Source: Natronorubrum texcoconense (GTDB taxonomy: Archaea > Halobacteriota > Halobacteria > Halobacteriales > Natrialbaceae). From it: 64,000 nt of DNA. The position numbers were made by a program, and so were the translations under genes. Shown here piece after piece: positions 28,364-49,878 of the stretch. The stretch covers positions 62,001 through 126,000 of the forward strand of contig NZ_FNFE01000003.1 of NCBI RefSeq assembly GCF_900100335.1, written 5' to 3'. Within the stretch, counting starts at the first letter, position 1; every line of letters begins with the position of its first letter. The notes under the pieces were generated by a model. It was not told where the DNA came from, did not search any database, and saw only the letters and a program-made list of their open reading frames with translations.

Positions 28364-28387
28364 GACAATGTACGTACAGGTGATCCA

Positions 28388-32988: not shown

Positions 32989-33177
32989 ATGGCGGACGAA
33001 CTCCGTGAAATCGACGTGTTGGTTCGACGAGAGTGCAGGATCTCCGAAACGATTGGCGACGTATCGCTTCCGCGACGTTCGGAACCCGCTGGAGCGCGTC
33101 ACGAGCCACCGATCGGTCCGCTCGGCAGCTCCGTGGATACTATCCTGATCGACTCAGTCGATGTGAGTCCGCGATGA
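32989..33177 (+). CDS. Small unknown first gene of the iron operon, 62 residues
   Basis: The ATG lies 6 bases after an iron box and about 22-29 bases after a TATA element. The stop overlaps the permease start as ATGA. Both facts support translation. The peptide begins MADELREIDVLVRRECRISE and ends SVDTILIDSVDVSPR. It has no membrane helix or known motif. It could be a regulatory or assembly peptide coupling translation to the permease, or the remnant of a larger gene. I do not recognise it. Confidence 0.5.
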   Translation: MADELREIDVLVRRECRISETIGDVSLPRRSEPAGARHEPPIGPLGSSVDTILIDSVDVSPR

Positions 33178-34304
33178 GTGGAACGCAACCGGATCTCGAG
33201 ACGGATCAGGCCGAGCGGTCGGTATCGGACGGCACGCGGTTCCGGTGGCTCTTCGATCCGAAACTCCTCACGGTGGTGTTCGGGAGCCTCGTCGTCGTCT
33301 TCGTCGGCGCGCTGATTCAGGTGAGCTACGGCGCGTACTCGATGACGTTCGCCGAGGCGTGGCGGGCGGTGTTCAACCCGAACGTGTTGTTCAATCCGCA
33401 GGCGTGGGACGCGTTTTTGCTCGGCGAACCGATGCCAGACATGAGCACCGAGAGCCTCATCGTCTGGAATATCCGTCTTCCGAGGGTGTTCGTCGCGGTG
33501 CTGGTCGGCATGAACCTCGCCGTGTCGGGGGCGATCTTCCAGGCGGTCACCCGGAACGAACTCGCGAGTCCGTTCATTCTCGGCGTCTCCTCCGGCGCGG
33601 GGCTCATGATCTTGCTCACGCTCGTCGTGTTCGGAAGTCTAACGACGTTTCTGCCGCTGATCGCTGCGCTCGGCGGAGCCATCTCGTTTCTCATCGTCTA
33701 CGTTATCGCCTGGAAAAACGGGACGTCACCGGTTCGACTGGTTCTGGCCGGCGTCATCGTCGGTACGGTTTTCGGATCGCTGCAGACGGGGCTGTTTTTC
33801 TTCGCGGACGACATCGGCGTCGTTCAGTCGGCTATCGCGTGGACCACCGGTTCGCTCACCGGCACCGATTGGGAGCAGGTTCGAATCGTGCTCCCGTGGA
33901 CGATTGCAGTCGTCGTCCTCTCTATCGCCGGCTCGCGCCAGATGAACGTCCTTCTGTTGGGCGAGCAGACCGCGAAATCCCTGGGAATGTCGATCGAGAA
34001 AGTCCGCTTTGCGCTGTCCGGGGTCGCCGTCCTCGCAGCGGCGGCGAGCATCGCCGTCGCCGGCATCGTCGGGTTCGTCGGCCTTATCGTCCCCCACATG
34101 GTCCGGAACCTCGTCGGAAGCGACTCCAAGAAGTTGATCGTCGGCTGTCTGTTCGTCGGTCCGGCGTTGATGGTCAGTGCCGACGTGGGCGCGCGACTGG
34201 CGTTGAGTCCCACTCAGATCCCCGTCGGCATCGTCACCGGACTCATCGGTGGTCCGTACTTCCTCTACTTGATGCGAAAACAGCAGAATATGGGTGAGAT
34301 CTAA
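33174..34304 (+). CDS. FecCD-family ABC permease for ferric siderophore/heme/cobalamin uptake
   Basis: This 376-residue protein has about ten transmembrane helices. FecCD signatures include IRLPRVFVAVLVGMNLAVSG, QAVTRNELASPFILGVSSGAG, the SLGMSIEKVRFALSG coupling helix and GFVGLIVPHMVRNLVGSDSKK, and it ends VTGLIGGPYFLYLMRKQ. It moves an iron complex delivered by a lipoprotein binding protein. It normally needs a FecE-type ATPase. None is intact in this window: the position directly downstream holds only a mosaic remnant. The ATG at 33174 overlaps the small upstream gene. Confidence 0.92.
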   Translation: MSGTQPDLETDQAERSVSDGTRFRWLFDPKLLTVVFGSLVVVFVGALIQVSYGAYSMTFAEAWRAVFNPNVLFNPQAWDAFLLGEPMPDMSTESLIVWNIRLPRVFVAVLVGMNLAVSGAIFQAVTRNELASPFILGVSSGAGLMILLTLVVFGSLTTFLPLIAALGGAISFLIVYVIAWKNGTSPVRLVLAGVIVGTVFGSLQTGLFFFADDIGVVQSAIAWTTGSLTGTDWEQVRIVLPWTIAVVVLSIAGSRQMNVLLLGEQTAKSLGMSIEKVRFALSGVAVLAAAASIAVAGIVGFVGLIVPHMVRNLVGSDSKKLIVGCLFVGPALMVSADVGARLALSPTQIPVGIVTGLIGGPYFLYLMRKQQNMGEI

Positions 34305-34565
34305 ATGGGACGCACCCTCTCCCGGGAGAGGACGTCGCACAGCAGTATCACCGTCGAGGGGCTCGTCGATCACGGCCGCTATCTCCATCGAGGCTTTTTC
34401 GAGACCGTCACTGACGCGGATCGAGAGGCGGTCGAGCGCGGTACCCACGAGGAACTGCTCGCGGGGGACGGCCTGTACGCCAATTTGTGGGGCGTACAAA
34501 CCGGCGAGATCGACGATTTGCCCGAGACGTTCGTCGATACCGTCACTCACGGGACGATCGACGGC
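34305..34565 (+). pseudogene. Mosaic remnant of ABC ATPases (FecE-like start, exporter-like end)
   Basis: The reading frame starts directly after the permease stop. Its first part, ERTSHSSITVEGLVDHGRYL and FFETVTDADREAVER, matches the region after the Q-loop in FecE-type importer ATPases. Without a break it continues GTHEELLAGDGLYANLWGVQ and GEIDDLPETFVD, typical of the C-terminus of ABC exporter ATPases. Walker A, signature and Walker B motifs are all absent. The simplest reading is deletion between two former ATPase genes, joined at an AVER/GTHEELL-like point. The frame then runs without a stop through the next promoter into the binding-protein gene. The end given here is approximate. Confidence 0.7.
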
Positions 34566-34577
34566 GACCGATCACTT

Positions 34578-34627
34578 TTAGGCCAACCTAAAAATCGGAG
34601 CGTTTATTATGTTTTAGGTGGGCCTAA
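34578..34627 (+). promoter_or_regulatory. Paired iron-box operator and promoter of the binding-protein operon
   Basis: TTAGGCCAACCTAA (34578-34591) and TTAGGTGGGCCTAA (34614-34627) flank a TATA-like TTTATTAT (34603-34610). The ATG at 34632 follows by four bases, so the start is probably leaderless. The bases between the boxes also match the promoter at 32934 closely, so the two promoters look like copies of each other. Confidence 0.75.
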
Positions 34628-34631
34628 ATCC

Positions 34632-35825
34632 ATGGGTAGAGAGAAACCGGCACGCGGGGAATCGACGCGGCGGGCGTTCGTCGCGTACGGCAGCACGGCC
34701 ATCGGTAGCGGATTACTGGCCGGCTGTTCGGACATCGTCAATCAGAACGAATCGGAGTCGACGACGGAGACGGACGACGGCTCCTACACCGCGACGCTCG
34801 CGCCGGTCGGTACCGTGACGCTCGAAACGCCGCCGACGAGCGTGTTCACTCACTTCCCGTGGTTCCCGGACATGACCACCGCACTCGGTCGCGGCGAGAG
34901 CGTCAACTATCTCTGGTGGGATGGAACCGCGGCGGCCCTCGAGTACTTCACCGCCGGAATGGACGGCGTCGAAATTGCGTGGAGAGACGAACCGGGAGCG
35001 TACGGGTTCACGAAAGAACAGCTGTACGAACTCGACAGCGACCTCCACCTCGTGGACCCCGCCTGGGTGACGACACAGGACAACTGGACACGAGCTGACG
35101 TCGACGAGATCGCAACCAACGTCGGACCGTGGTTTGGGAACTACTACAGCTCCAATCACGCCACGCCGCCCGAGGAGTGGGCCGACGGCTACGAGTACAA
35201 TACACTGTGGGAACTGTTCGACGGCGTCGCCAGCCTGTACGGCGAACGGTCGCGGTACGAAGCGTTCGCAGCCGTTCACGACGACCTCCTCGAGACCATC
35301 GAAGACCGGCTTCCGCCGGAGTCTGAACGACCGACCGTCGCGTACCTCTCTCTCGAGACGGACCTGTCCGCGATCCACGTGCTCCCGCTGAACGCTCCAG
35401 GATACTGGAACACCCACACCAGGCCGCTCGGTGCCGTCGACGCCTTCGGCGAGCAGGAGTTCGACGGGCCGTTCATCGAAGTCGATTCGGAGGCGCTGTT
35501 GGAGTCTGACCCGGACGTGATACTCGCACTCTGGACGGTCACGGAGACAGTCGACTTCGAACAGCTGGTCCGGAACCTGCGAGACGATCCCGTCGCAAGC
35601 GAGCTAACCGCGGTACAGAACGATCGGGTGTACGTCCAAGGAACGCGGTGGCAGGGACCGCTGATGAACCTCTTTCAGTTGGAGATGACCGCAAAGCAAC
35701 TGTACCCGGAGCAGTTCGGCACGTGGCCGGGGTACGAGGATGGCGATGTCTACCCGGCGTTCGGTCCCGACGAACGACTGTTCGATCACCAGCGGGTCGC
35801 GGATATCATCACCGGGGAGTTCTGA
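34632..35825 (+). CDS. Iron-complex ABC substrate-binding lipoprotein 1
   Basis: This 397-residue protein has a Tat signal (STRRAFVAYG) and lipobox LLAGC with Cys32. The mature part has the two-lobed FecB/BtuF-like fold: it includes KEQLYELDSDLHLVDPAW, ESDPDVILALW and a final FGPDERLFDHQRVADIITGE. It should bind a ferric chelate outside the membrane and pass it to the FecCD permease encoded upstream. It is the first of three tandem paralogues. It starts directly after a double iron box and ends two bases before the next paralogue. Confidence 0.9.
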   Translation: MGREKPARGESTRRAFVAYGSTAIGSGLLAGCSDIVNQNESESTTETDDGSYTATLAPVGTVTLETPPTSVFTHFPWFPDMTTALGRGESVNYLWWDGTAAALEYFTAGMDGVEIAWRDEPGAYGFTKEQLYELDSDLHLVDPAWVTTQDNWTRADVDEIATNVGPWFGNYYSSNHATPPEEWADGYEYNTLWELFDGVASLYGERSRYEAFAAVHDDLLETIEDRLPPESERPTVAYLSLETDLSAIHVLPLNAPGYWNTHTRPLGAVDAFGEQEFDGPFIEVDSEALLESDPDVILALWTVTETVDFEQLVRNLRDDPVASELTAVQNDRVYVQGTRWQGPLMNLFQLEMTAKQLYPEQFGTWPGYEDGDVYPAFGPDERLFDHQRVADIITGEF

Positions 35826-35827
35826 AC

Positions 35828-36994
35828 ATGAGCGACGACACCACCAACACGACACACGAGACGCCGACGCGCAGAGACACGCTGAAATACGGCGGGGCGC
35901 TCGCAACCGGTGCCGCCCTCGCGGGCTGTTCGGAGTTAGTCGGACAGGACGGAGACGAGGCGGCTGAGACGACCGGGGGCGAATCGTACTCGGTGTCGAT
36001 GGAACCGATGGGGAGCGTTGCGTTCGACCGGGTGCCCGAACGCTGGATCGCGTACGACGGCGGCTACGCCGATATGGCCGTCGCACTGGGGCAGGCAGCC
36101 GGTCTGGCGGGTATCGGTGGCGCGGATCGATACTACACCGCCGTCTACGACGAGCTCCCCGGCGTGACCGTCGACCGGGACGTCCTCGAGCAGTATCCGG
36201 AAGTCCGAACCAAAGAGGAGTTCTACGAACTCGAGAGCGACGTCCACCTGTACGATCCCCAGATGCTCGTCAACTGGTTCGATTGGGACGATGACGACGT
36301 CGAGGAAATCGCGTCGAACGTCGCGCCGTTCGTCGGGAATCTGATCTTCCGGCGCTCCGACGAGTGGCACGACTACCGCTACTACACGCTGTACGAAGCC
36401 TTCGAGAAAGTGGCCGAGGTGTTCCAACAGCAAGCGCGCTACGAGGCGTTCAGCGAACTGCACACCGAGTACATCGCGGCGATACAGGAGCGGCTCCCGC
36501 CGAGTGACGAACGGCCGACCGCGTTCCTCACGTTCGAGGGGGCCGACGAGCCGGAAGCGTTCTCGCCGTATCGACTCGACGACGGGGGAACGAGCAAGAA
36601 ACAGTGGCGCGACCTCGGCGTCCACGACGCGCTTGCGGGGACGGGCACCGAGAATCTCAGCACCACGAACCGCGGCAAACTCGATTACGAGAACCTGCTC
36701 GAGGTCGACCCCGACGTAATTCTCGTCCGCGGGCACGAGCGAAAGTCCGCTACGGAGTTCCGCAACACCGTTCTCGAGTACATGCAGAGTCATCCCGTCG
36801 GGAGCGAACTTACCGCCGTCCAGAACGGACGCGTGTATCGCGGCGGCTACCTCAATCAGGGACCAATTCACAACTTCTTCCTGACCGAGCGAGCGGCGAA
36901 GCAACTGTTTCCCGAGGAGTTCGGCGACGTGACCGGCGACGAACGGCTGTTCGACCGCCAGCGGGTTGCGGACATCATCACGGGTGATCGGTGA
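35828..36994 (+). CDS. Iron-complex ABC substrate-binding lipoprotein 2
   Basis: This 388-residue paralogue has a Tat signal (TRRDTLKYGG) and lipobox ALAGC with Cys34. It shares with its neighbours the FYELESDVHLYDPQ region, LLEVDPDVILVRG, the helix QQARYEAFSELHTEYIAAI and the end DERLFDRQRVADIITG. The start is two bases after the previous stop, so it belongs to the same transcript. Different binding-cleft residues among the three paralogues suggest different ferric ligands. A tiny gene begins directly at its stop. Confidence 0.9.
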   Translation: MSDDTTNTTHETPTRRDTLKYGGALATGAALAGCSELVGQDGDEAAETTGGESYSVSMEPMGSVAFDRVPERWIAYDGGYADMAVALGQAAGLAGIGGADRYYTAVYDELPGVTVDRDVLEQYPEVRTKEEFYELESDVHLYDPQMLVNWFDWDDDDVEEIASNVAPFVGNLIFRRSDEWHDYRYYTLYEAFEKVAEVFQQQARYEAFSELHTEYIAAIQERLPPSDERPTAFLTFEGADEPEAFSPYRLDDGGTSKKQWRDLGVHDALAGTGTENLSTTNRGKLDYENLLEVDPDVILVRGHERKSATEFRNTVLEYMQSHPVGSELTAVQNGRVYRGGYLNQGPIHNFFLTERAAKQLFPEEFGDVTGDERLFDRQRVADIITGDR

Positions 36995-37168
36995 ATGCGC
37001 GCTCGAGAGTGGGCGATTGCGGGATCCTTCCGCGTGCCAGCGGACTACGACATCCCCGACCTACCGTCGTGGCGAGTTCGTCGCAACAAGTGTGGCGGGC
37101 TGGCGTTCGCCGACGGGGACGAGGAGCCGTTCATCGCCGCCGATCGACCAGTGACAGTCAGACGATAA
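36995..37168 (+). CDS. Tiny unknown gene between binding proteins, 57 residues
   Basis: An ATG follows the stop of the previous gene with no gap. The peptide is MRAREWAIAGSFRVPADYD at the start, WRVRRNKCGGLAFADGDEEP in the middle and FIAADRPVTVRR at the end. The balanced composition and ordered look (VP-D-YDIP, a CGG turn, a basic end) are those of a real small domain rather than a shadow frame. It may be a small accessory of the uptake system. No family recognised. Confidence 0.6.
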   Translation: MRAREWAIAGSFRVPADYDIPDLPSWRVRRNKCGGLAFADGDEEPFIAADRPVTVRR

Positions 37169-37177
37169 CGACAACCC

Positions 37178-37297
37178 ATGATCGACGCCACCACCGACAC
37201 GACACCTGAAAGACGGCTCTCACGACTGCACGAAGGCGAACAACGAGTCGACCGACAGCAGGCTGGAAACAGCACCAACGGACCCACCGAACCATGA
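37178..37297 (+). CDS. Possible 39-residue leader peptide coupled to binding protein 3
   Basis: A short frame, MIDATTDTTPERRLSRLHEG then a Gln/Asn/Thr-rich end, stops in an ATGA overlap with the start of the third binding-protein gene. The overlap is the main support. The peptide is hydrophilic with no motif and could be chance. Confidence 0.3.
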   Translation: MIDATTDTTPERRLSRLHEGEQRVDRQQAGNSTNGPTEP

Positions 37298-38478
37298 GAG
37301 ACGCTACTGAGAACGCGACAGCGATACTGACACGCAGAGAGACGCTGAAGTACGGCGGAACGATACTTACGGGGAGCGTCCTGGCCGGCTGTTCGGAGCT
37401 GGTCGGACAGGAGGATACCACCGAACGGACTGACACGGGCGGATCGTACGAGGCGTGCCTCGAGCCCGTCGGCTGTCTCTCCTTCGAGGACGTCCCCGAG
37501 ACGTGGATGGCCATCACCGGACCCTGGGCCGATATGGCGATCGCACTCGGTCAGCGTGACGGATTCAAGCCCGCTGGGTGGTACGCGCCATCGTACTTCT
37601 TCGATCGCGTCGGCGTGTCGATGCCGTCGGACGTTCCGTCGCCCCTCTCGAACGGCTGGGACAAGGAACTGTTCTACGAACTCGATCCGGAGGTTATTCT
37701 CTGCGATCCGAACTACTTCCACGGGTCGGGCTTCGACGGCTCGTGGGACGAATCCGATACGCAGGAACTCGTCGACACCGTCGCACCCTTCTTCGGGAAC
37801 AACATCGTGCGGCGGCGGGAGTTTCACACCTACGAACTCCCCTCGCTGTACGAGGCGTTCGACCGACTGGCCGACCTCTTTCAGGAGCGCGAGCGCTACG
37901 AGGCGTTCGCCAGTATCCACGACGAGATGCTGGCGGAGATCGACTCGCGGCTCCCCGCCGGAAGCGAACGGCCCGAAGTCGGGCTCGTGAACTTCGGATC
38001 CGCGCCGAGCGAGGGAACGTTTGCTCCGATGACGACCGAGGGGGAAGGCGTCGAGATGAAGACCTACCGCAACCTCGAGGTGGAGAGCACCTTCACGGCC
38101 GACCAGGGTGAGCTCGACTACGAGTCGATGCTCGAGATCGATCCCGAGATTCTCATCGTTCACGGCGGGGTTCGGCTCACGGACGACGACGGCGAGTACG
38201 ACGCGTCAGCGTTCCACGAGCAGTTCGTCGCGCCGATGGAAGCCGACGCGGTAGGCAGTCAGCTCACCGCGGTTGCAGCGCGAAATATCTATCCGGGTGC
38301 ACACTTCCAGCAGGGGCCGATCGTCAACCTCTTCCAGACGGAGCTGACCGCACGACTGCTGTATCCGGACGAGTTTGGCACGTTCGATCCGGAGAACTTC
38401 CCCGACGTTCCAGCAGACGAACGGCTGTTCGACCGCCAACGGGTTGCGGACATCATCAACGGGGAGATCGACCAATGA
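37294..38478 (+). CDS. Iron-complex ABC substrate-binding lipoprotein 3
   Basis: This 394-residue paralogue has a Tat signal (TRRETLKYGG) and lipobox VLAGC with Cys33. It shares ELFYELDPEVILCDPNYF, YESMLEIDPEILIVHGG and the closing DERLFDRQRVADIINGE with its two neighbours. It is closest to binding protein 2 at the N-terminus. Its stop overlaps the start of the FAD oxidoreductase gene as ATGA, which ties ligand capture to a redox step. Confidence 0.9.
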   Translation: MRDATENATAILTRRETLKYGGTILTGSVLAGCSELVGQEDTTERTDTGGSYEACLEPVGCLSFEDVPETWMAITGPWADMAIALGQRDGFKPAGWYAPSYFFDRVGVSMPSDVPSPLSNGWDKELFYELDPEVILCDPNYFHGSGFDGSWDESDTQELVDTVAPFFGNNIVRRREFHTYELPSLYEAFDRLADLFQERERYEAFASIHDEMLAEIDSRLPAGSERPEVGLVNFGSAPSEGTFAPMTTEGEGVEMKTYRNLEVESTFTADQGELDYESMLEIDPEILIVHGGVRLTDDDGEYDASAFHEQFVAPMEADAVGSQLTAVAARNIYPGAHFQQGPIVNLFQTELTARLLYPDEFGTFDPENFPDVPADERLFDRQRVADIINGEIDQ

Positions 38479-39401
38479 GCGCGCTCGAGTCCACGGGGGC
38501 GGAGACGGCGTTCGATCACGACGTCGTCGTGGTCGGCGGCGGTCCCGCAGGCTGTGCGGCGGGCGTCTTCACGGCTCGGTCCGGCCTGGACACGGCGATC
38601 TTCGACCGCGGACGCTCCTCGATTCAGCGCTGTGCCTACCTCGAGAACTACCTCGGCTTCCCAGCGGGGATCGACATCGAGACGCTGTACGGACTGATGC
38701 ACGACCACGCCGAGACGGCGGGCTGTGAGATCGTTCCCGACCTCGTCGAGTCGCTCGAACGCGTCGAGAGCGGCGAGGGGTTCGTCGTGACTCCACAGGA
38801 GGGAGAGTCGGTCACCGCCCGGCGGGTGGTTGCGGCCACGCGCTACGACGGCGAGTACATGCGCGGTCTCGACGACGAGGCGGCGATGTTCGAGACCCAC
38901 GACCACGACGGCGAGGAACACGAGCATTTCGACAAGAGCTACGCCGAAAGCGACGGGAGGACGCCGGTCGATGACCTGTTCATCGCGTCGCCGTACGGGG
39001 ACACCGGCTATCAGGCGAGCATGGCCGCCGGACACGGCACGCGGGTCGGGATAACCCTCGTCGAAGACGTTCGACGAGAACGGGGCTTACCCGAACCCCT
39101 GGCGAATCACTACGACTGGATGCGTCGGGAGCGGGAACTCGACGACGAGTGGCGCGATCGGAGCCGATGGCGGGAGTACGTCGACACCCAACTCCCCGAC
39201 GATCACGACCTCGAGGAGGCGCGACTCGAGGAGATACGTGAACAGGAGATCGACCGCCGGCTCGCGACCTATCTCTCCGACGACGAAATCGAACGGCGGA
39301 TCGAGCACGGTCACAGGCGGCTGCTCGAGCACATCGAGGACGAGTTGATCCTCGAGGCGGCGCGCGAGATCGACGCCGAACGCGAAATGGGAGGCGAGTA
39401 G
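38475..39401 (+). CDS. Reduced FAD oxidoreductase of the thioredoxin-reductase fold
   Basis: This 308-residue protein has an FAD-binding N-terminus (VVVVGGGPAGCAAGVFTARSG) and the closing FAD motif region VDDLFIASPYGDTGYQASMA, as in thioredoxin reductase. The redox CxxC pair and the middle NADPH-binding domain are missing. In their place is a short His/Asp-rich stretch (ETHDHDGEEHEHFD). The last 110 residues form charged helices rich in Arg and Glu. Its coupling to an iron-binding protein gene suggests a role in releasing or modifying the ferric ligand, perhaps with another electron donor. That is inference. Confidence 0.75.
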   Translation: MSALESTGAETAFDHDVVVVGGGPAGCAAGVFTARSGLDTAIFDRGRSSIQRCAYLENYLGFPAGIDIETLYGLMHDHAETAGCEIVPDLVESLERVESGEGFVVTPQEGESVTARRVVAATRYDGEYMRGLDDEAAMFETHDHDGEEHEHFDKSYAESDGRTPVDDLFIASPYGDTGYQASMAAGHGTRVGITLVEDVRRERGLPEPLANHYDWMRRERELDDEWRDRSRWREYVDTQLPDDHDLEEARLEEIREQEIDRRLATYLSDDEIERRIEHGHRRLLEHIEDELILEAAREIDAEREMGGE

Positions 39402-40329: not shown

Positions 40330-40875
40330 CTACTTCGTCGCGGACTCGAGGACCAGCGTGTCGTCTTCGAGGTAGTGTTCGATGTGGTGGGTGTGCTCCT
40401 CGATGGTTTCGAGTTGCTCACGAAGCATCTCTCCGGTCGCGTAGTCGCCGAGTCCCTCCGCGAGTTCGATGTGCTGTCGGTAGCTCTCGATGATATCGCC
40501 CATCATCTCGAGGTCGTTGGCGAGCGAGGTCCGGACGTCGTAGACGTCTTCGTCTTCGGGTTCGACCGTCGCGTTGGCCGCGAGGGTCGTCATACTGGCG
40601 TGTGGGACGCCGCCGAGCGCCTGCAGTCGTTCGGCGAGTTCGTCGGCCGCATCTTCGACGTCCTCGTAGACCTCCTGGAGGAAGACGTGGATCTCGAGGA
40701 ACTCGGCCCCTTCGACGTTCCAGTGGTGCTTGTGGAGTTGGTGGTAGAGGACGTACGCGTCGGCGAGGTCGGTGTTGAGCGCGTCGACGATCTGTGCTGC
40801 CTTTTCGGTGTCGAGCCGAAGGGCGTTCGCTTCGACGGTATCTGCGGGCTGTCGGATGGTCTTTTGCGTGTTCAT
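40330..40875 (-). CDS. dpsA: DpsA, ferritin-like DNA-protecting iron-storage protein
   Basis: This 181-residue protein forms a 12-subunit shell that oxidises and stores iron and protects DNA from peroxide damage. It is very close to Halobacterium DpsA: YHQLHKHHWNVEGAEFLEIH and EVYEDVEDAADELAERLQAL (ferroxidase ligands His, Asp and Glu at the subunit interface), LGGVPHAS, DVYDVRTSLANDLEMMGDII and the end HHIEHYLEDDTLV. I chose the ATG at 40875; a GTG one codon earlier is unlikely. It sits beside the iron-uptake locus in the opposite orientation. Confidence 0.94.
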   Translation of the reverse strand: MNTQKTIRQPADTVEANALRLDTEKAAQIVDALNTDLADAYVLYHQLHKHHWNVEGAEFLEIHVFLQEVYEDVEDAADELAERLQALGGVPHASMTTLAANATVEPEDEDVYDVRTSLANDLEMMGDIIESYRQHIELAEGLGDYATGEMLREQLETIEEHTHHIEHYLEDDTLVLESATK

Positions 40876-41065
40876 CACAGCTCATAGTCGGTTCTCTCAC
40901 CTCTTATAACTTTTCAATTTACAAATATTTTTTCGTACTGCCTAAACCATCTCTCTCACCAGTGGAACGGCAACCCAGGATGGAGAGACTGTCGTCACTC
41001 TCGAAGCGAGACGGCTACCGGCGTACGACAGACCGGCCATCGCTGCGGAGCGGGTCGAATATCGC

Positions 41066-41516: not shown

Positions 41517-42410
41517 ATGGTTTCGGAACTCTTCGATGAGGAACAGTGGGAGCCGGTCGCCGACCTGAACGACGAGCTCGAGGACATCACCTATCACCGA
41601 GCGGTCGACGCCGGCACGGTCCGGATCGCCTTCGATCGACCCGCGGTGCGCAACGCCTTCCGTCCGGGAACGGTCGACGAACTGTACGACGCGCTGGACC
41701 ACGCCAAGCGCCAGACCGACGTCGGCTGTATCCTGTTGACCGGAAACGGCCCGTCGCCGAAAGACGGCGGCTGGGCCTTCTGTTCCGGCGGGGATCAGAC
41801 GATTCGCGGCGAGGACGGCTATCAGTACGAGGGCGACGAGGAACGGGCGTCGGAGCAGGGACGGCTGCACATTCTCGAGGTGCAACGCCTGATTCGACAC
41901 ATTCCGAAAGTCGTCGTCTGCGTCGTCCCCGGCTGGGCCGTCGGCGGCGGCCACTCGCTGCACGTCGTCTGTGACCTCACGCTCGCGAGCGCGGAACACG
42001 CGAAGTTCCTCCAGACCGACCCCGACGTGGCCAGCTACGACGCCGGCTTCGGCTCGGCCTACCTCGCCAAGCAGATCGGCCAGAAAAAGGCTCGAGAGGT
42101 GTTCTTCCTCGGGAAAACCTACTCAGCCGCAGAGGCCGCAGAGATGGGGATGGTCAACGAGGCGGTTCCACACGAGGAGTTAGAGGCGACGGCACTCGAG
42201 TGGGGCGAGCGCATCAATGCGAAGAGTCCGACGGCGATGCGGATGCTCAAGTACGCGTTTAACATGACCGACGACGGGATGGTTGGCCAGCAGGTGTTCG
42301 CCGGCGAGGCGACGCGACTGGGCTACATGACCGACGAGGCGAAGGAGGGCCGGGACGCGTTCGTCGAGGGCCGTGATCCCGAGTTCGACGACTACCCGTG
42401 GCACTACTGA
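41517..42410 (+). CDS. menB: 1,4-dihydroxy-2-naphthoyl-CoA synthase MenB
   Basis: This 297-residue crotonase-fold enzyme closes the naphthoquinone ring in menaquinone synthesis. The signatures are AVRNAFRPGTVDEL, CSGGDQTIRG, VVVCVVPGWAVGGGHSLHVV (oxyanion hole), QTDPDVASYDAGFGSAYLA and the C-terminal DDYPWHY. It is one transcription unit, separated from menF-menD by the iron locus and from menA by a secreted iron/heme operon. It has the length and C-terminus normal for the family. Confidence 0.95.
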   Translation: MVSELFDEEQWEPVADLNDELEDITYHRAVDAGTVRIAFDRPAVRNAFRPGTVDELYDALDHAKRQTDVGCILLTGNGPSPKDGGWAFCSGGDQTIRGEDGYQYEGDEERASEQGRLHILEVQRLIRHIPKVVVCVVPGWAVGGGHSLHVVCDLTLASAEHAKFLQTDPDVASYDAGFGSAYLAKQIGQKKAREVFFLGKTYSAAEAAEMGMVNEAVPHEELEATALEWGERINAKSPTAMRMLKYAFNMTDDGMVGQQVFAGEATRLGYMTDEAKEGRDAFVEGRDPEFDDYPWHY

Positions 42411-42792
42411 GCGTAGCGATTTGATCGGTCACCGTCGCGTTCGGTTGTGAACATTCTGGGTCAGTTTTTGTAGCGAGTGTCTGTCCCCTCTTGAGGGACG
42501 TCTCCTCGAGCGTACTGCTCATGCTGGCGACAGTGAGTACCACGCCCTCCCCAACCGACTCACTCGCGTTGCTCGTTCATCCCTCGCGCAGTATCGTCAT
42601 CCGACCTCGCCGTCGCTCGGTCGGAACGACAGCGCGCGCCACCGCAGAGTGTTTGACCGATCCAGGCAACTTCCTTCTCCAGTACTGCCCGCCGTTGCAT
42701 TCGAGCACGCCCGCTCTATACCTTCGGCACGATCGCGGTAGCATCGTCAGGAAGAGTAACGCTTTGGGTCTTCCAGCACCGACACGCAGCCA
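42411..42792. other. Spacer after menB containing repeat copy B
   Basis: About 380 bases separate menB from the peroxidase operon. The middle third is copy B of the dispersed repeat. The last 70 bases (42720-42792) should hold the operon promoter. I see no gene in it. Confidence 0.5.
42511..42642 (-). repeat. Dispersed intergenic repeat, copy B (after menB)
   Basis: Read on the minus strand this segment starts TGGCGCGCGCTGTCG, has a short variable middle, then GACGATACTGCGCGAGGG, TGAACGAGCAACGCGAGTGA, GTTGGGGAGGGCGTGG and TCGCCAGCATGAGCAG. By eye it is about 75-80 percent like copy A over the 95-base core. The variable middle is shorter than in copy A. Confidence 0.72.
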
Positions 42793-44055
42793 GTGACACT
42801 CCCCGATCGGTCCGCGCTATCCCGTCGGGACTACCTCCGGTCGCTGGTCGCCGTCGGCGGCGCGAGCGCGCTCGCCGCCTGTACCTCCGAGGGCGACGAT
42901 GTCGAAATTCCCTCGGGAACGGACGACCCGGACTCGCTCCCCGAGCGCCAGCACGCCTGGAACGACGCCCTCACGCGGGACGACGACGGCAACGTCCGGC
43001 CGCCGGAACACCACGTCCTGGTCGCGCTCTCGCTGGTCGACGACCCGACCGACGAGGCTCGAGAGCGGGTCGAAGCCGCCCTGCAGGAACTCGAGCGCGC
43101 TTACGAGTGGAGCAACGAGGGGCTGCTCTTTACGCTGGGCTACACGCCGGCGTACTTCGACCGGTTCGACGGCTCGTTACCCGACGAAGTCGACCTCCCG
43201 GAGCCGAGGGCGGTCATCGGCCATGTCGACGCGTTCGACGAGTTCGACGCCCTCCTCCACCTCGCGAGCGATCACTCGCAGGTCGTCCTCGAGGCCGAAG
43301 AGGGACTGTTCGGCGAGGCTGACGAGTTCAACGGCCAAGAGATCGAAACCGATTTAATGGACGTCTTCGAGCGCGTCGACGACCACCGCCGAACCGGCTT
43401 CGTCGGCCCGGGACTCCCCGCGGAGCATACCGACATCTCGGGCGTTCCCGACTCCGTGCCGGAGGACGCCCCGTTCTTCATGGGCTTTCGGTCCGGCTTC
43501 GCGGAGAGCCAGGCCACCGAGGACCGGGTGACGATCGAGGACGGCCCGTTCGCTGGTGCGACGACCCAACACGTCGAATCGATGACCATCCAGCTCCGGA
43601 CCTGGCTCGAGCAGGACAGCCACTACCAGCGGGTCGCGAAGATGTTTAGCCCGGAGCACGCCGACGAGGACCTGACCGGCGACATCGGCGAGGCGCTTGG
43701 TGGCTCGAGCGGGCTGACCGACGAACGGATCGAGGCGACCGAGTCCGACGCTCGCGGCGGCGTCGTCGGCCACGCCCAGAAGGCCGCTCGAGCGAGGGAG
43801 GACGGCGATCCGCTCTTGCTCCGCCGGGACTTCAACACCGTCGACGGCGACACGCCGGGACTCCACTTCCTCTCGCTGCAGGCCGGCATCGAGGAGTTCG
43901 TCCGCGTCCGCGAGGCGATGGAGGGCGACGACCTCGACGCACCAAACGCGAACAACGGGATTCGGAGCTACATCTTTCCGAATCAGCGCGGCAACTACCT
44001 GGTCCCACCCCGGTCGCTGCGAGCGCTTCCGGCGGCGGCGCCCGATGAAGCGTGA
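42793..44055 (+). CDS. Tat-exported Dyp-type heme peroxidase-like lipoprotein
   Basis: This 420-residue protein has a Tat signal (SRRDYLRSLVAVGG) and lipobox ALAAC with Cys30. The body resembles dye-decolorising peroxidases/EfeB: two ferredoxin-like lobes and a heme-proximal region GGVVGHAQKAARAREDGDPL followed by LLRRDFNTVDGDTPGLHFLS. The classic distal GxxDG motif is not evident, so catalysis is uncertain; such proteins are annotated DUF7405. In bacteria EfeB works with EfeO in iron uptake or heme handling. The next gene encodes an iron-binding P19-like lipoprotein, which supports that role. The start is GTG at 42793. The stop overlaps no gene but is 29 bases from the next start. Confidence 0.78.
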   Translation: MTLPDRSALSRRDYLRSLVAVGGASALAACTSEGDDVEIPSGTDDPDSLPERQHAWNDALTRDDDGNVRPPEHHVLVALSLVDDPTDEARERVEAALQELERAYEWSNEGLLFTLGYTPAYFDRFDGSLPDEVDLPEPRAVIGHVDAFDEFDALLHLASDHSQVVLEAEEGLFGEADEFNGQEIETDLMDVFERVDDHRRTGFVGPGLPAEHTDISGVPDSVPEDAPFFMGFRSGFAESQATEDRVTIEDGPFAGATTQHVESMTIQLRTWLEQDSHYQRVAKMFSPEHADEDLTGDIGEALGGSSGLTDERIEATESDARGGVVGHAQKAARAREDGDPLLLRRDFNTVDGDTPGLHFLSLQAGIEEFVRVREAMEGDDLDAPNANNGIRSYIFPNQRGNYLVPPRSLRALPAAAPDEA

Positions 44056-44084
44056 CGATCGGACAGCGAAACCACGAATACACA

Positions 44085-45410
44085 ATGCACGAACGCGATA
44101 TCGACCGGCGGACGTTCGTTCGATCGACAGGTGCGACAGCCGGAGCGCTCGCGCTGGCGGGCTGTGCGGGATTCGGTGCCGATGACTCCGACGAAAACGG
44201 AGCCGACGATTCGACCGGCGACGACGAACTGCCGACGCCGGCATTCCCAGAGGTCGAGGACCCGCCGGACGCGGTCTACCTCCCGACGCACAGGGAGTCG
44301 ATGCGAGTCCTCGAGCCGGTCGAAGCCGGCGACTACACCCTCGCGCCGATGCTCTCCTACCCGCACCCGTTCTGGCTCGTAACCGGCAGCGGCGGCGAAG
44401 ATGGTGTTCAGCGCGTCGACCCCGAGCAGAGCGGCGGCGTCCACCTGATGTTCGTCGTCTGGGACGAGGAGACGAACGTCGTCCTCCCCGTCGACACCGG
44501 CGCCGAGATCGCGGTCTCGCTGGACGGCGAGCGGGTCGGCTCGCCCCAATCCGCGTGGCCGATGATCTCACAGGAGATGGGGTTTCACTTCGGTGACAAC
44601 GTCCCGCTCGAGGAGGAGGGCACCTACGCCATCGAGGTCGAGATTCCGCCGCTTTCGGTCCGAACCACAGGCGATCTCGAGGGCCGATTCACCGAGTCGG
44701 CGACCGCGACGTTCGAGTTCGAGTACGACCGGGAGTTCATGCTCGAGGTGACCGACGGCGTCGAGTATCTCGACGAAGCGGAGTGGGGCGAACCCGGCGC
44801 GCTCGAACCGATGGCCCACGGAGCGCACGCGGACGACGAACACGGCGATGGCGATGGAGACGACGGCGATCACGACCACGATGGGGACGGCCACGGCGAC
44901 GAGCACGATCACGGTGACCACGACCACCACGCCGCAATTCCCTATTCCGCGCTTCCGCCGGCGGAAGCGTATCCGGGGACCCACCTCGAGCCGGTCGACG
45001 ACTCCAATGAATCTAGTTCGCGCGACGACGGCGGCCCCGAGGCGGACGACCTTCCGCGAAGCGGCGACGCGGCGTTCGTCGCGACGCTCCTCGAGTCCGA
45101 CTCCCGTTTAGCTGACGGCGAGGACTACTACGTGCTCGTCTCACCGCGAACGCCGTACAATCGGGTCCCGCTCGCGGATATGTCTCTGCGGGCGGCGGTC
45201 GAGCGCGATGGCGAGACGGTCACGGACGACGCGACACTCGAGCAGACGATCGACGGCGAGTACGATCTGCACTACGGGACGTCGCTCGCCGACGTCCGAT
45301 CGGGTGATTCGGTGGCGATCCAGATCGAGTCGCCGCCGCAGGTGGCTCGCCATCAGGGGTACGAGACGGCGTTTCTCGAGATGCCGCCGATCGAGTTGCG
45401 AGTGCCGTAG
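44085..45410 (+). CDS. P19/Tp34-like iron-binding lipoprotein with His-rich insert
   Basis: This 441-residue protein has a Tat signal (DRRTFVRSTGATAG) and lipobox ALAGC with Cys27. It contains a domain like the bacterial iron transporter P19: YTLAPMLSYPHPFWLVTG, VHLMFVVWDEETNVVLPVD and MISQEMGFHFGDNVPLEEEG carry the expected His and Met metal ligands. Residues 245-282 are an Asp/His-rich loop (about 12 His) that could collect metal. A second beta domain (about 285-441) follows, probably a repeat of the same fold. I chose the ATG at 44085, before the Tat motif. It lies in an operon with a heme peroxidase and a surface protein. Confidence 0.82.
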   Translation: MHERDIDRRTFVRSTGATAGALALAGCAGFGADDSDENGADDSTGDDELPTPAFPEVEDPPDAVYLPTHRESMRVLEPVEAGDYTLAPMLSYPHPFWLVTGSGGEDGVQRVDPEQSGGVHLMFVVWDEETNVVLPVDTGAEIAVSLDGERVGSPQSAWPMISQEMGFHFGDNVPLEEEGTYAIEVEIPPLSVRTTGDLEGRFTESATATFEFEYDREFMLEVTDGVEYLDEAEWGEPGALEPMAHGAHADDEHGDGDGDDGDHDHDGDGHGDEHDHGDHDHHAAIPYSALPPAEAYPGTHLEPVDDSNESSSRDDGGPEADDLPRSGDAAFVATLLESDSRLADGEDYYVLVSPRTPYNRVPLADMSLRAAVERDGETVTDDATLEQTIDGEYDLHYGTSLADVRSGDSVAIQIESPPQVARHQGYETAFLEMPPIELRVP

Positions 45411-45415
45411 CGACG

Positions 45416-46138
45416 ATGACCGAACCACCGACGCCACGCCGGACGGCCGCGCTCGCGGTGATCGTCGCGTGCGCACTCGTCGGCGTCCTGCTCGCGCCGG
45501 TGGTCGTCACCGCCGGAGACAACGCGACGACGTTTCAGTTCGATCCGCACGAACTCGAGGCGGAGCCGGGTGAGACCGTGACCCTCGACCTCGTGGCGAG
45601 CACGCACGGCGGCTACGGCGGCGAAGGGATCGACCAACTGTCGATGGATCTCGCGTACGATTCGGATGCGTTGACCGTCACCGACGTCGAACACGGCCCG
45701 ATGCTGGCGGCCGAGAACGGGGGCGCTGACGCGAACGGCTCGGCTAACGGCGACGTGACCAATGGCGACGACGCGACCGACGGCGGAGGTTCAGCCACCG
45801 TCGACGGCTCGGTCGATATCGACGACGAGCACGGAACGGTGACGATCGAACAGCAGCGCGAGCCCTCGAGTGACGGCGCCATCGGGACGGACACGGCGGC
45901 GACCATCACGCTCGAGGTCGCCGAGGACGCGCCGTCGACGACGACCCTCGAGATCACCGACGCGGAGGCGACCCTCGTCACCGGCTATCCGCAGGCGTCG
46001 CTCGAGCGAGACGCGACCATCACGATCGGTGACGGCGGCGAATCGGACGCCGACGGAGACGACACGATTCCCGGATTCACGGCGCTACTGGCGGTGGCCG
46101 CGATCGTCGCGGCGCTGTTCTGGTTCGGGCGTCGATAG
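45416..46138 (+). CDS. Secreted cohesin-like protein with PGF-CTERM-type anchor
   Basis: This 240-residue protein has an N-terminal signal helix (TAALAVIVACALVGVLLAPV), a beta domain with FDPHELEAEPGETVTLDLVA and MDLAYDSDALTVTDVEHGPM as in cohesin-like domains, a low-complexity Asn/Gly/Asp linker, and the C-terminus IPGFTALLAVAAIVAALFWF-GRR. A PGF motif, a hydrophobic helix and terminal arginines form the archaeosortase ArtA signal (PGF-CTERM), which replaces the tail with a lipid. It starts five bases after the P19-like gene, so it probably presents or holds the iron/heme proteins at the S-layer. Confidence 0.82.
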   Translation: MTEPPTPRRTAALAVIVACALVGVLLAPVVVTAGDNATTFQFDPHELEAEPGETVTLDLVASTHGGYGGEGIDQLSMDLAYDSDALTVTDVEHGPMLAAENGGADANGSANGDVTNGDDATDGGGSATVDGSVDIDDEHGTVTIEQQREPSSDGAIGTDTAATITLEVAEDAPSTTTLEITDAEATLVTGYPQASLERDATITIGDGGESDADGDDTIPGFTALLAVAAIVAALFWFGRR

Positions 46139-46268
46139 GCCGTACTGCTCTCGAGCGTCGGAATTCCGCCAGCTACGCCTATTGGATCGAACGTCGCGAC
46201 TCTGACCGGATCGAGTTGGTCGGCTGCAATGCCAACGTTGACACTCCCGCGAGTCGGACTCTCGAGCA

Positions 46269-47210
46269 ATGAGTACGGCGGAGGTCGACATTTCACGGAC
46301 GAAGGCGTGGCTGATGGCTGCACGCCCCCAGACCTTGCCCGCGGCGGCGGCGCCGATAATCGTCGCCACGGGACTCGCGATCCACGAGGGCGTGTTCGCC
46401 CTGTTGCCGGCGGTGATGGCGTTCGTCGGGGCGGCACTGATCCAGGTCGGCACCAATTTCGCGAACGATTACTACGACGCGATCAAGGGTGCCGACACGG
46501 ACGACCGAGAGGGCTTTACGCGGGTTACGCAGGCGGGAATCATCGAACCCGAACGGGTCAAACTGGCGACGATCGTCACGTTCGCGCTGGCGATCGTCAC
46601 CGGAACGTATCTCGTCTATATTGGCGGCGTCCCGATCCTCGTCGTTGGACTGGTGAGCGTCTTCTGCGGCTGGGCGTACACCGGCGGTCCCTACCCGCTC
46701 GGCTACCACGGTCTCGGGGATCTGTTCGTCTTCGTCTTCTTCGGTATCGTCGCCGTGATGGGCACGTTCTACGTCCAGGCCGCGGCGACGCTCGCGGAAC
46801 CGCTCGCCGTGGGAATTCCGGACGGAACGGTAACCCGCGAGGCGTTCCTCGCGAGTCTTCCGGTCGCCGGGATTTCGACGGCGATTCTGGTGGTGAACAA
46901 CGTTCGGGATCTCGAGACCGACGCGGAGACGGGCAAGCGCACGCTCGCGGTTCGGCTCGGCTACCGGTGGAGTCGCGCCGAGTACGTGGTCATGATCGGG
47001 CTCGGCTACGTCACGCCCGTCTGGCTCTGGCTCGGCGAGGGCTTCGGTCCCGGCGTGTTGCTCCCGCTGGTCACGCTGCCCTACGCGGCCGTGATCGCCC
47101 GAACCGTCTGTACGCGAACCGACGGCGAGGCGCTCAATCCGGCGCTCGAGGGCACCGGGAAACTGCTGGCGATCTACGCGGCTCTGTTCGCCGCGGGGGT
47201 GGTGCTGTGA
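46269..47210 (+). CDS. menA: 1,4-dihydroxy-2-naphthoate polyprenyltransferase MenA
   Basis: This 313-residue UbiA-family membrane enzyme attaches the prenyl tail to dihydroxynaphthoate. The first prenyl-diphosphate/Mg motif is [18 protein letters not shown] and the second is [17 protein letters not shown]. About eight transmembrane helices are visible. The start [21 protein letters not shown] is typical. The stop overlaps the menC start as GTGA. It is the first gene of the menA-menC-menE operon. Confidence 0.95.
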
Positions 47211-48301
47211 GCAACGACTGCGATTACGCTCGAGACCTCGAACTCGAGTACCGGCCGTTCTCGCTGTCGCTTTCCAGCCCGCTCGAGACGGCCGACGGGA
47301 CGATCGAAACACGGGACGGTTTTCTCGTTCGCATTCTAGACACGACGCCCGACGACGGCGACCCGGTGGTCGGCTACGGCGAGGCGACGCCGCTTCCCGG
47401 CTGGACGGAGTCCCGCGCGGACTGCGAGGCCGCCCTCGAACGGGCCAGCGAGGCGATCGGAACCACTCCCGACGCCGCCCTCGAGGCGGTCGAAGACCAG
47501 GTCGCGGCTCGCCACGCCATCACGCTCGCGCTCACGGATCTGCAAGCGACCCGCGAGTCGACCCCGCTGTACCGGTACATCGGCAAGGGGCCGATGGTCG
47601 GCCGGGTGCCGGTGAACGCGACCGTCGGCGACGGTTCGCCGACCGAAACCGCGAGCGAGGCGGCCGCTGCCGTCGGCCGCGGGTTCAATTGCTGTAAGCT
47701 GAAGGTCGGTCGCAGGGACCTCGAAACGGACATCGAGCGCGTGAGACGCACGCGCGAGGCCGTCGGTCCGGACGTCGAACTGCGGGCCGACGCGAACGAG
47801 GCCTGGACCTACGACGAGGCGACGACCGCGCTCGAGGCGTTCGCCGACCTCGACGTCGCGATTCTCGAGCAACCGCTGCCGGCGGGGGCGCTCGAGGGCC
47901 ACGCCGATCTCAGGCGACGGACGGGCGACGACGGCGTCGCGATCGCGCTGGACGAAGGGCTGCTCGAGCACGGCGTCGACGCGATCTGCGACGCGGAGGC
48001 GGCCGACGTGCTCGTGCTCAAGCCGATGGCGCTCGGCGGCGTCGACGTCGCCCGGAAAGTCGCGGCCTGGGTTGGAATGCTCGAGGTTACCCCCATCGTG
48101 ACGACGACGATCGATGCCGTCGTCGCGAGGACCGGTGCAGTTCACCTCGCGGCGTCAATTCCGGACGTGCCGGCCTGCGGCGTGGCTACGGCGGAGTTGC
48201 TGGCCGAGGATCTCGGGCGAGATCCCGTCCTCCTCGAGAAGGGCTCGGCCGTCGTCCCGCAGGCGAAGGGACTCGGCGTCGAGGGGGTGTGGCAGGAGTG
48301 A
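47207..48301 (+). CDS. menC: o-Succinylbenzoate synthase MenC
   Basis: This 364-residue enolase-superfamily enzyme dehydrates SHCHC to o-succinylbenzoate. The catalytic lysines and metal ligands are visible: FNCCKLKVGRRDL (KxK), LRADANEAW (Asp), AILEQPL (Glu), IALDEGL (Asp) and VLKPMALGG (Lys). The N-terminal cap includes VVGYGEATPLPGWTES. The start is GTG at 47207, overlapping the menA stop; the stop overlaps the menE start. Confidence 0.93.
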   Translation: MSNDCDYARDLELEYRPFSLSLSSPLETADGTIETRDGFLVRILDTTPDDGDPVVGYGEATPLPGWTESRADCEAALERASEAIGTTPDAALEAVEDQVAARHAITLALTDLQATRESTPLYRYIGKGPMVGRVPVNATVGDGSPTETASEAAAAVGRGFNCCKLKVGRRDLETDIERVRRTREAVGPDVELRADANEAWTYDEATTALEAFADLDVAILEQPLPAGALEGHADLRRRTGDDGVAIALDEGLLEHGVDAICDAEAADVLVLKPMALGGVDVARKVAAWVGMLEVTPIVTTTIDAVVARTGAVHLAASIPDVPACGVATAELLAEDLGRDPVLLEKGSAVVPQAKGLGVEGVWQE

Positions 48302-49878
48302 CCGGCTCCCCGGTCGAGTGGCCGACGCGGGACCTGCTGTCCCACCGCGCCTCGACGACGCCGGACGCGACGGCCGTAATCGACGCCGATGCGGACGAGT
48401 CGTGGACGTTCGGGGAGTTCGACCAGCGGGTCGGCGTCGTCGCGAAACGGCTCGAGACGGTTCTCTCCGATCCCGAGAGTGGGACGGCCGATACCGAGCG
48501 ACGACTCGGCGTGCTGATGGAGACGCGAGTCGCGTTCGCCGAGGTCTACCTCGCCGCGATGCGCCGCGGGGTGACGGTCGTGCCGCTGAACGTCCGCGAG
48601 ACGGTCACCGAACTCGAGTCGAAAGCAAATCGGACCGATCTCGACGCGATCGTCTGCGAGTCGGGGACGGAGGCGTTGGCGCTCGAGGTCGCGGACTGCC
48701 CGATCCTCTCCGTCGACGAGTCCGGCCGCGACGGCGTTCGTTCGCTCTCCTCGCTCGAGTCGGCGGCCGATGCGAACGCGACACCAGTTCCGCTCGAGCG
48801 CGACCGGACCCACCTGCTCATGTTCACGTCGGGGACCTCTGGCACCCCGAAGGGCGTTCGACTGACGGTCGGCAACCTCGTCGCGAGCGCGACCGCGTCG
48901 GCGTTCCGCCTCGGCGTCACGCCCGCCGATCGGTGGCTCTGCTGTCTGCCGATGTACCACATGGGCGGGCTGGCCCCGGTCGTCCGCTCGATGCTGTACG
49001 GCACACCCGTCGTGATCCAGCGGGCGTTCGATCCCGAGAAAACCGCTCGCGTGATGGGGGAGTTCGATATTACGGGCGTCTCGCTCGTCCCCACGATGTG
49101 CAAACGGCTGCTCGACGCCGGCTGGAATCCGGCGGATTCGTTGCGATTCGTTCTGCTCGGCGGCGCGCCGGCGACGAGCGAGTTTCTCGAGCGCTGTCGG
49201 GCGGCCGACGTGCCCGTCTACCCGACCTACGGGATGACCGAGACGGCCTCTCAGATCGCGACGGCCACTCCGGGGGAGACTGCGACCCACGAGGGAACGG
49301 TCGGCCAGCCCCTCGTCTGTACGGACGTAACGGTCGTCGACGACGCCGGCGAGCGGGTTCCGGCCGGCGAGACCGGCGAACTGGTCGTCTCCGGACCGAC
49401 GGTGACGCCGGGCTATCTCACCGAGGCGCAGACGGAAGCGGCGTTCGGCGAGTACGGGTTGCACACCGGCGATATCGGCTATAGGGACGTAAACGGCCGA
49501 CTGTGGGTGCTCAACCGGCGAAGCGACCGGATCGTCACCGGGGGCGAAAACGTCGATCCCGGCGCGGTGATCGAAGCGTTGCGGTCGCATTCGTCCGTCG
49601 AGGACGCCGCCGTCGTCGGCCTCGAGGACCCCGAGTGGGGCGAGCGCGTGGCGGCGCTCGTCGTGCCCGCAGACGCCGGTGGTGAGTCAGCCGATCCGAG
49701 GACGATCGACCTCGAGTCGCTGCTCGAGCACTGCGAGACGCGCCTCGCCGGGTTCAAACGACCGAAGACGATCAGGGTCGCCGACTCGCTCCCGCGGACG
49801 GCGTCGGGGACGGTCGATCGTGAGGCGGTCCGGGATCGGTTGCTCGAGTCTGGGACGGACGTCTCGGAGCTGTCCTGA
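48298..49878 (+). CDS. menE: o-Succinylbenzoate-CoA ligase MenE
   Basis: This 526-residue AMP-binding ligase activates o-succinylbenzoate with ATP and coenzyme A, giving the substrate of MenB. Motifs are LMFTSGTSGTPKGVRLT (P-loop), YPTYGMTETASQ, LHTGDIGYRDVNGRLW and the C-terminal lysine in LPRTASGTVDREA (here the lysine position reads T, which is unusual). I chose the GTG at 48298, which overlaps the menC stop; another GTG three codons earlier is possible. It is the last gene of the men operon and is followed by an 84-base palindromic element. Confidence 0.92.
   Translation: MTGSPVEWPTRDLLSHRASTTPDATAVIDADADESWTFGEFDQRVGVVAKRLETVLSDPESGTADTERRLGVLMETRVAFAEVYLAAMRRGVTVVPLNVRETVTELESKANRTDLDAIVCESGTEALALEVADCPILSVDESGRDGVRSLSSLESAADANATPVPLERDRTHLLMFTSGTSGTPKGVRLTVGNLVASATASAFRLGVTPADRWLCCLPMYHMGGLAPVVRSMLYGTPVVIQRAFDPEKTARVMGEFDITGVSLVPTMCKRLLDAGWNPADSLRFVLLGGAPATSEFLERCRAADVPVYPTYGMTETASQIATATPGETATHEGTVGQPLVCTDVTVVDDAGERVPAGETGELVVSGPTVTPGYLTEAQTEAAFGEYGLHTGDIGYRDVNGRLWVLNRRSDRIVTGGENVDPGAVIEALRSHSSVEDAAVVGLEDPEWGERVAALVVPADAGGESADPRTIDLESLLEHCETRLAGFKRPKTIRVADSLPRTASGTVDREAVRDRLLESGTDVSELS

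Follow-up and report, generated by a model that had tools for sequence, protein, structure and literature searches.

What is the function of three tightly spaced genes of the haloarchaeon Natronorubrum texcoconense, located at positions 42793-46138 of the 64,000-nucleotide stretch of DNA analysed here (the window)? A first-pass annotation had described them as closely packed genes for exported proteins, namely a Dyp-like peroxidase, a P19-like iron protein and a PGF-CTERM surface protein, and had proposed that together they capture iron or heme. Our analysis confirmed three open reading frames on one strand, here called genes A, B and C (Table 1), and bore out that the first two encode lipoproteins of the twin-arginine translocation (Tat) pathway. 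The trio is a variant, restricted to certain lineages, of a gene pair found across the class, DUF7405-DUF7350, which might function in extracytoplasmic copper trafficking in a manner similar to the Sco-ECuC-DtpA pathway of Streptomyces; we put the probability of this reading at roughly 0.45.

Gene A belongs to DUF7405 (PF24152, E 2.7e-148), has its nearest named relative in Natronolimnohabitans innermongolicus (79% identity) and carries a twin-arginine motif and a lipobox cysteine, C30. By sequence only, its relationship to peroxidases of the DyP superfamily is weak (best profile match to a DyP, E 0.019), and single-sequence searches of the PDB with the proteins gave nothing useful, so that profiles and structures were needed. 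An AlphaFold2 model built from 36 family members, with a predicted local distance difference test score (pLDDT) of 87.8, has the dimeric alpha+beta barrel of the DyP fold. Its best PDB matches were DyP/EfeB structures (Foldseek E 1.6e-16; VIA-align Z 27.6 over 321 residues), as were all of the top 50 structure matches, and EfeB of Sphingomonas, Pseudomonas and E. coli were among the best. An identity as EfeB equivalog was rejected because TIGR01412 does not recognise the family: gene A scored 11.9 bits against a cut-off of 428, and no match was found in any genome of our survey, which covered 116 genomes of the haloarchaeal class.

An hhalign comparison of gene A with E. coli EfeB (MG1655) had a low probability as a homology test, yet the motifs line up. 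The heme-ligand His of EfeB pairs with H327 and its LRR motif with R344-R345, and S234 stands where EfeB has the distal Asp of its GFKDG motif. Among 131 distinct DUF7405 sequences H327, R344, R345 and E243 are invariant, the first three covering the predicted proximal heme ligand and the distal Arg, whereas none of the 131 has the distal Asp that belongs to GXXDG in DyPs (position 234 is S in 99, A in 27, N in 4 and T in 1). This Asp is credited with deprotonating peroxide (PMC7611857, PMC8197335), though in some DyPs the Arg can matter more. Because the His and Arg residues are invariant and the Asp is never present, heme binding by DUF7405 appears likely and ordinary peroxidase activity doubtful.

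Gene B matches DUF7350 (PF24041, E 1.1e-52) and, weakly and above the cut-off, the Iron_transport/P19 model PF10634 (24.5 bits versus 21); it also has a Tat-signal match, a twin-arginine motif and a lipobox cysteine, C38. In a structural model from 35 sequences (pLDDT 82.1), residues 82-236 aligned with structures of P19, FetP, FtrA, HftA and Tp34 at Z 11.4-12.4. The top 22 VIA-align rows were P19-family entries or a design on the P19 fold, the next row of another family having Z 9.7, and a profile search retrieved FtrA (8vv5, E 8.8e-8). Curated model and fold thus both place this domain in the P19 family, and at the level of predicted models the Dyp-like and P19-like identities of the first-pass annotation hold (Z 27.6 and Z 12.4).

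The putative metal site of gene B differs from that of P19. In the HMMER alignment the VHLE motif of P19 becomes HLM, with Glu replaced by Met133, while the PM..G.HYG motif retains its Met (M171) and His (H179) and gains an inserted Met, M176. Across 113 DUF7350 proteins, H131 and M133 were found in 110 of 110 and M171, M176 and H179 in 109 of 109 in which the residues are present. Thus the conserved metal-site Glu (E44 of P19, E46 of FetP) does not occur in DUF7350, and the conserved Met (M88/M90) and the His of HYG do. According to PDB entry titles the solved P19 proteins bind copper, and P19 E44Q/M88I and FetP E46Q/M90I are copper-bound variants, that is, the depositors tested these positions as site residues. 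A stand-alone haloarchaeal P19 protein (L059, G053:C1:2734377-2734670) keeps the H-x-E site as HLE, and the Met is therefore special to DUF7350. Judged by its conserved His and Met residues, the P19 site of DUF7350 probably holds a metal. The C-terminal part forms a second beta (Ig-like, that is, immunoglobulin-like) domain with conserved H407 and H434.

The linkage of the two families is very strong. DUF7405 was found in 101 and DUF7350 in 97 of the surveyed genomes, and DUF7350 is missing from every one of the 15 genomes that lack DUF7405 (Fisher 1.4e-15, with related genomes treated as independent in this and the other linkage counts). DUF7350 lies within 6 kb of at least 83 of the 115 main-subfamily DUF7405 copies, against a chance expectation of about 0.4% per copy, and 59 main-subfamily pairs show the order of the window (same strand, DUF7405 first). 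A diverged second DUF7405 subfamily served as internal control, with 0 of 28 copies beside DUF7350. These counts reject chance or artefact as the source of the pairing. The joint conservation on which the first-pass annotation had made its proposal depend holds for the pair, which is kept together class-wide; a gene C-like gene follows it in only 28 of 80 named loci.

Such loci belong to most Natrialbaceae and to Halorubrum, Natronocalculus and Salinarchaeum, and the third gene usually overlaps the DUF7350 stop by 4 bases. Gene C itself matches Cohesin (PF00963, 25.0 bits versus 24.1) and the PGF-CTERM model TIGR04126 (25.7 bits versus 24.5), in agreement with the archaeosortase-dependent anchoring proposed earlier. 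The His/Asp-rich loop of gene B is likewise real; its 41 residues, all H, D, E, G or A, include 11 His and 14 Asp. It had been taken as a feature of the proposed capture system and turned out to belong mainly to the cohesin-linked subset: of the 31 cohesin-linked DUF7350 proteins 26 have a His-rich loop, compared with 5 of the other 82 (p 8e-16). Most loop-less proteins (51 of 82) carry Met-x-Met instead, which was found in 2 of the 31 that have the loop; the median Met fraction was 3.0%, against 1.2% for all genes.

Which metal might the pair handle? Both folds belong to known parts of bacterial iron uptake (PMC6083913, PMC8197335), and an FTR1-independent iron capture can be drawn up from them: DUF7405 would oxidise ferrous iron or take iron from heme, as proposed for EfeB, and the P19 domain and His/Asp loop would carry the iron to Nramp, ZIP or another permease. 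Nramp (contigs C7 and C3) and ZIP homologues were indeed found elsewhere in this genome when divalent-metal permeases were checked, as the first-pass annotation had suggested. The FTR1 (EfeU) permease, already noted as missing from the window, was found neither in the whole genome nor in any of the 116 genomes, control genomes being positive, and FeoB was not found in this genome. Next to the pair FecCD genes are not enriched (1 of 150 FecCD places listed within 8 kb of the families versus 0.8-1.3 expected), and no DtxR-like TTAGG-n-CCTAA operator was found upstream of 81 DUF7405 genes, where the enriched words came from the end of menB or were AT-rich and promoter-like. Together with the absence of EfeB-type proteins across the survey and the altered residues in both active sites, this makes iron capture less likely than copper trafficking, to which it is the main rival. 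From the earlier proposal the folds, export, anchoring and joint conservation stand; the step to iron or heme is not supported, given the lost distal Asp, the Glu to Met exchange and the enrichment of SCO1 rather than FecCD.

SCO1 genes showed a clear neighbourhood signal, with 19 of 150 SCO1 places listed lying within 5 kb of the families versus 0.72 expected, spanning 19 genomes, 6 genera and 3 families. The examined SCO1 clusters also contain TlpA-like thiol-redox and CcdA/DsbD-like genes; redox genes of this kind recall, on the iron side, the thioredoxins of the Campylobacter P19 operon (PMC6083913). In S. lividans the DyP DtpA is exported by Tat and acts together with two copper chaperones, Sco and ECuC; it has been proposed to oxidise Cu(I) (PMC4736821). 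All three COX2-less genomes, which come from two related genera, fall within the set of 15 that lack the pair (p 0.0018), yet keep FecCD. As the Met/His sites suit copper and SCO1 is enriched where FecCD is not, we favour copper over iron capture.

Several observations weigh against copper trafficking. The 19 SCO1 cases are non-independent and come mostly from two genera; 13 of 18 SCO1 neighbours sit by DUF7350 copies without an adjacent DUF7405; and in this genome SCO1 adjoins a DUF7350 paralogue on contig C8 (L052), not the trio of the window. Upstream of the trio and within 10 kb of it lie an FecCD-type ATP-binding cassette (ABC) cluster with two lipoproteins (33174-39401) and a ferritin-like (Dps-type) gene (40330-40878), which would suit iron capture. 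Furthermore, P19 proteins work in iron uptake and yet employ copper, and a copper site is therefore compatible with an iron role. According to work cited in PMC11966278, the P19-type FtrA with copper oxidises Fe(II).

In the copper-trafficking reading, the trio would be a haloarchaea-specific metal-handling module of the membrane surface, its core formed by DUF7405, as a heme lipoprotein with the DyP fold, and DUF7350, as a lipoprotein carrier of P19 type, both predicted to be Tat-exported and lipid-anchored. With moderate confidence we infer that the metal of the His/Met site outside the membrane is copper; Met-x-Met motifs might help to hold it, and in the trio form the His-rich loop might do so. 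DUF7405 could, speculatively, alter the redox state of copper or shield it from peroxide, and copper might then pass to cuproproteins directly or sometimes via SCO1; gene C could be the partner of the His-loop form, perhaps as a surface scaffold. More tentatively still, haloarchaea may have rebuilt two bacterial iron-uptake parts into an FTR1-free surface copper relay that comes in two forms, one with Met motifs and one with the His loop and its own PGF-CTERM partner.

Two other explanations make use of the same residues. The pair might defend the surface against peroxide or hypochlorite, with the DUF7405 heme protein removing oxidants and DUF7350 sequestering redox-active metal to prevent Fenton chemistry, without uptake or delivery. 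The aerobic distribution, with the pair missing from the three COX2-less genomes, and the His- and Met-rich sequestering sequences would agree with this, but all sequences lack the DyP residue that deprotonates peroxide (PMC7611857), so that peroxidase activity may be low, and the specific SCO1 linkage would be left unexplained; we regard such a defence as rather improbable. The loss of the catalytic Asp beside an invariant heme-ligand His and Arg would also fit a DyP-derived heme or porphyrin carrier without catalysis, for which DUF7350 would be receptor or partner. This appears more improbable again, since neither heme-uptake permeases nor genes of heme biosynthesis were seen to recur among the neighbours and the invariant P19 metal-site residues argue for a metal, not heme, as the cargo of DUF7350.

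Table 1. Positions of the trio genes and their predicted features in the window.
Feature	Position	Strand	Basis
Gene A, DUF7405, Tat lipoprotein with DyP/EfeB fold	42793..44055	+	PF24152 E 2.7e-148; AlphaFold2 model
Gene A Tat signal peptide, RR residues 11-12, lipobox Cys30	42793..42882	+	sequence reading; SRR...ALxAC conserved in family alignment
Gene A Ser234 at the distal-Asp place of DyP GXXDG	43492..43494	+	hhalign with E. coli EfeB (GFKDG versus GFRSG)
Gene A Glu243, invariant acidic residue close to the lost Asp	43519..43521	+	131/131 sequences
Gene A His327, predicted proximal heme ligand	43771..43773	+	aligns with His of EfeB DSHIRLA; 131/131
Gene A Arg344-Arg345, includes predicted distal Arg	43822..43827	+	EfeB LRRGYS alignment; both 131/131
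Gene B, P19-like domain and DUF7350, Tat lipoprotein, lipobox Cys38	44052..45410	+	PF24041 E 1.1e-52; PF10634 24.5 bits
Gene B P19/FetP/FtrA-fold domain, residues 82-236	44295..44759	+	VIA-align Z 12.4 to FetP 5i0x
Gene B H131-L-M133, P19 H-x-E with Glu to Met	44442..44450	+	HMMER alignment VHLEA / vHLMa
Gene B M171, M176, H179, predicted metal-site loop (P19 M..HYG) with one extra Met	44562..44588	+	alignment; 109/109 where present
Gene B His/Asp-rich loop, residues 255-295	44814..44936	+	sequence composition
Gene B DUF7350 C-terminal domain, beta/Ig-like, conserved H407 and H434	45048..45398	+	PF24041 residues 333-449; model
Gene C, secreted cohesin-domain protein with PGF-CTERM anchor	45416..46138	+	PF00963 25.0 bits; TIGR04126 25.7 bits
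Gene C PGF-CTERM sorting signal, residues 215-240	46058..46138	+	TIGR04126

The actual start of gene B may be the ATG at 44085. The trio is flanked by an enoyl-CoA-hydratase type gene (menB by context) and a UbiA-type gene (menA), and further by an enolase-superfamily and an AMP-binding gene (menC and menE by context). The menaquinone genes of the window are split between 27014-30205 and 41517-49878, and the trio sits between menB and menA, an arrangement that recurs, almost exclusively within Natrialbaceae, at 23-24 of 80 named loci. A function in the men operon was considered and dropped, because the men context is confined to Natrialbaceae while the DUF7405-DUF7350 pair is class-wide. In the other men-context genome checked (G077), the nearest listed FecCD gene is about 51 kb away.

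Other neighbours recur elsewhere in the class. At 13-15 of 80 named loci, including L112, L119, L123, L126, L131 and others of Haloarcula type, genes for a HVO_0163-like helix-turn-helix regulator and a DUF7471 membrane protein stand directly before the pair; this two-gene set is a possible regulator. In several genomes OppA/B/D/F-like oligopeptide-type ABC transporters adjoin DUF7405 (L069, L040, L042). A multi-spanning membrane protein without a Pfam or NCBIfam match often lies beside DUF7350 (alignment A3, with L055, L056, L052, L046, L054 and others); its invariant His, Glu and Asp residues were noted, and it is a possible permease. The second DUF7405 subfamily (L036, L039, L041) occurs amid genes for a Nitrate_red_del-type chaperone and an FlpD/ferredoxin-type protein, and at L036 also near an aldehyde ferredoxin oxidoreductase gene.

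DUF7405 and DUF7350 are near-universal in haloarchaea and hitherto without described function, and neither is named in the open-licence literature, to which our search was confined. Their relationship to DyP and P19 proteins with altered active sites, always without FTR1, provides testable functions for both families. It bears on the copper supply to haloarchaeal oxidases and halocyanins, and on the question whether a protein of DyP fold can function when it lacks the peroxidase Asp.

With the iron systems EfeUOB, FetMP-FetABCDEF and FtrABCD the pair shares a DyP or a P19 component, the Fet operon also having thioredoxins, but the FTR1-family permease that defines these systems is absent from all 116 haloarchaeal genomes. 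Compared to the DyP peroxidases E. coli EfeB, B. subtilis YwbN and S. lividans DtpA, DUF7405 has the same fold (Z 26-27.6), is likewise exported by Tat and keeps the proximal His and the distal Arg, and it differs in its replaced distal Asp, its lipoprotein nature, an identity of only 17-18% and its score far below the TIGR01412 cut-off. In the P19/FetP/FtrA/Tp34 family (PF10634), His131, Met171 and His179 of gene B have counterparts in the copper-site H-x-E, M and H, whereas the Glu to Met exchange, the extra Met176, the lack of a His at the C-terminal ligand place, the fusion to a second domain (DUF7350) and the missing FTR1 partner set it apart. The haloarchaeal carrier is P19-like and not ECuC, the distal Asp is lost, and SCO1 is adjacent in some lineages only; what the pair has in common with the S. 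lividans Sco-ECuC-DtpA operon is that an exported protein of DyP fold shares its neighbourhood with a lipoprotein carrier of copper type and, in many cases, with SCO1.

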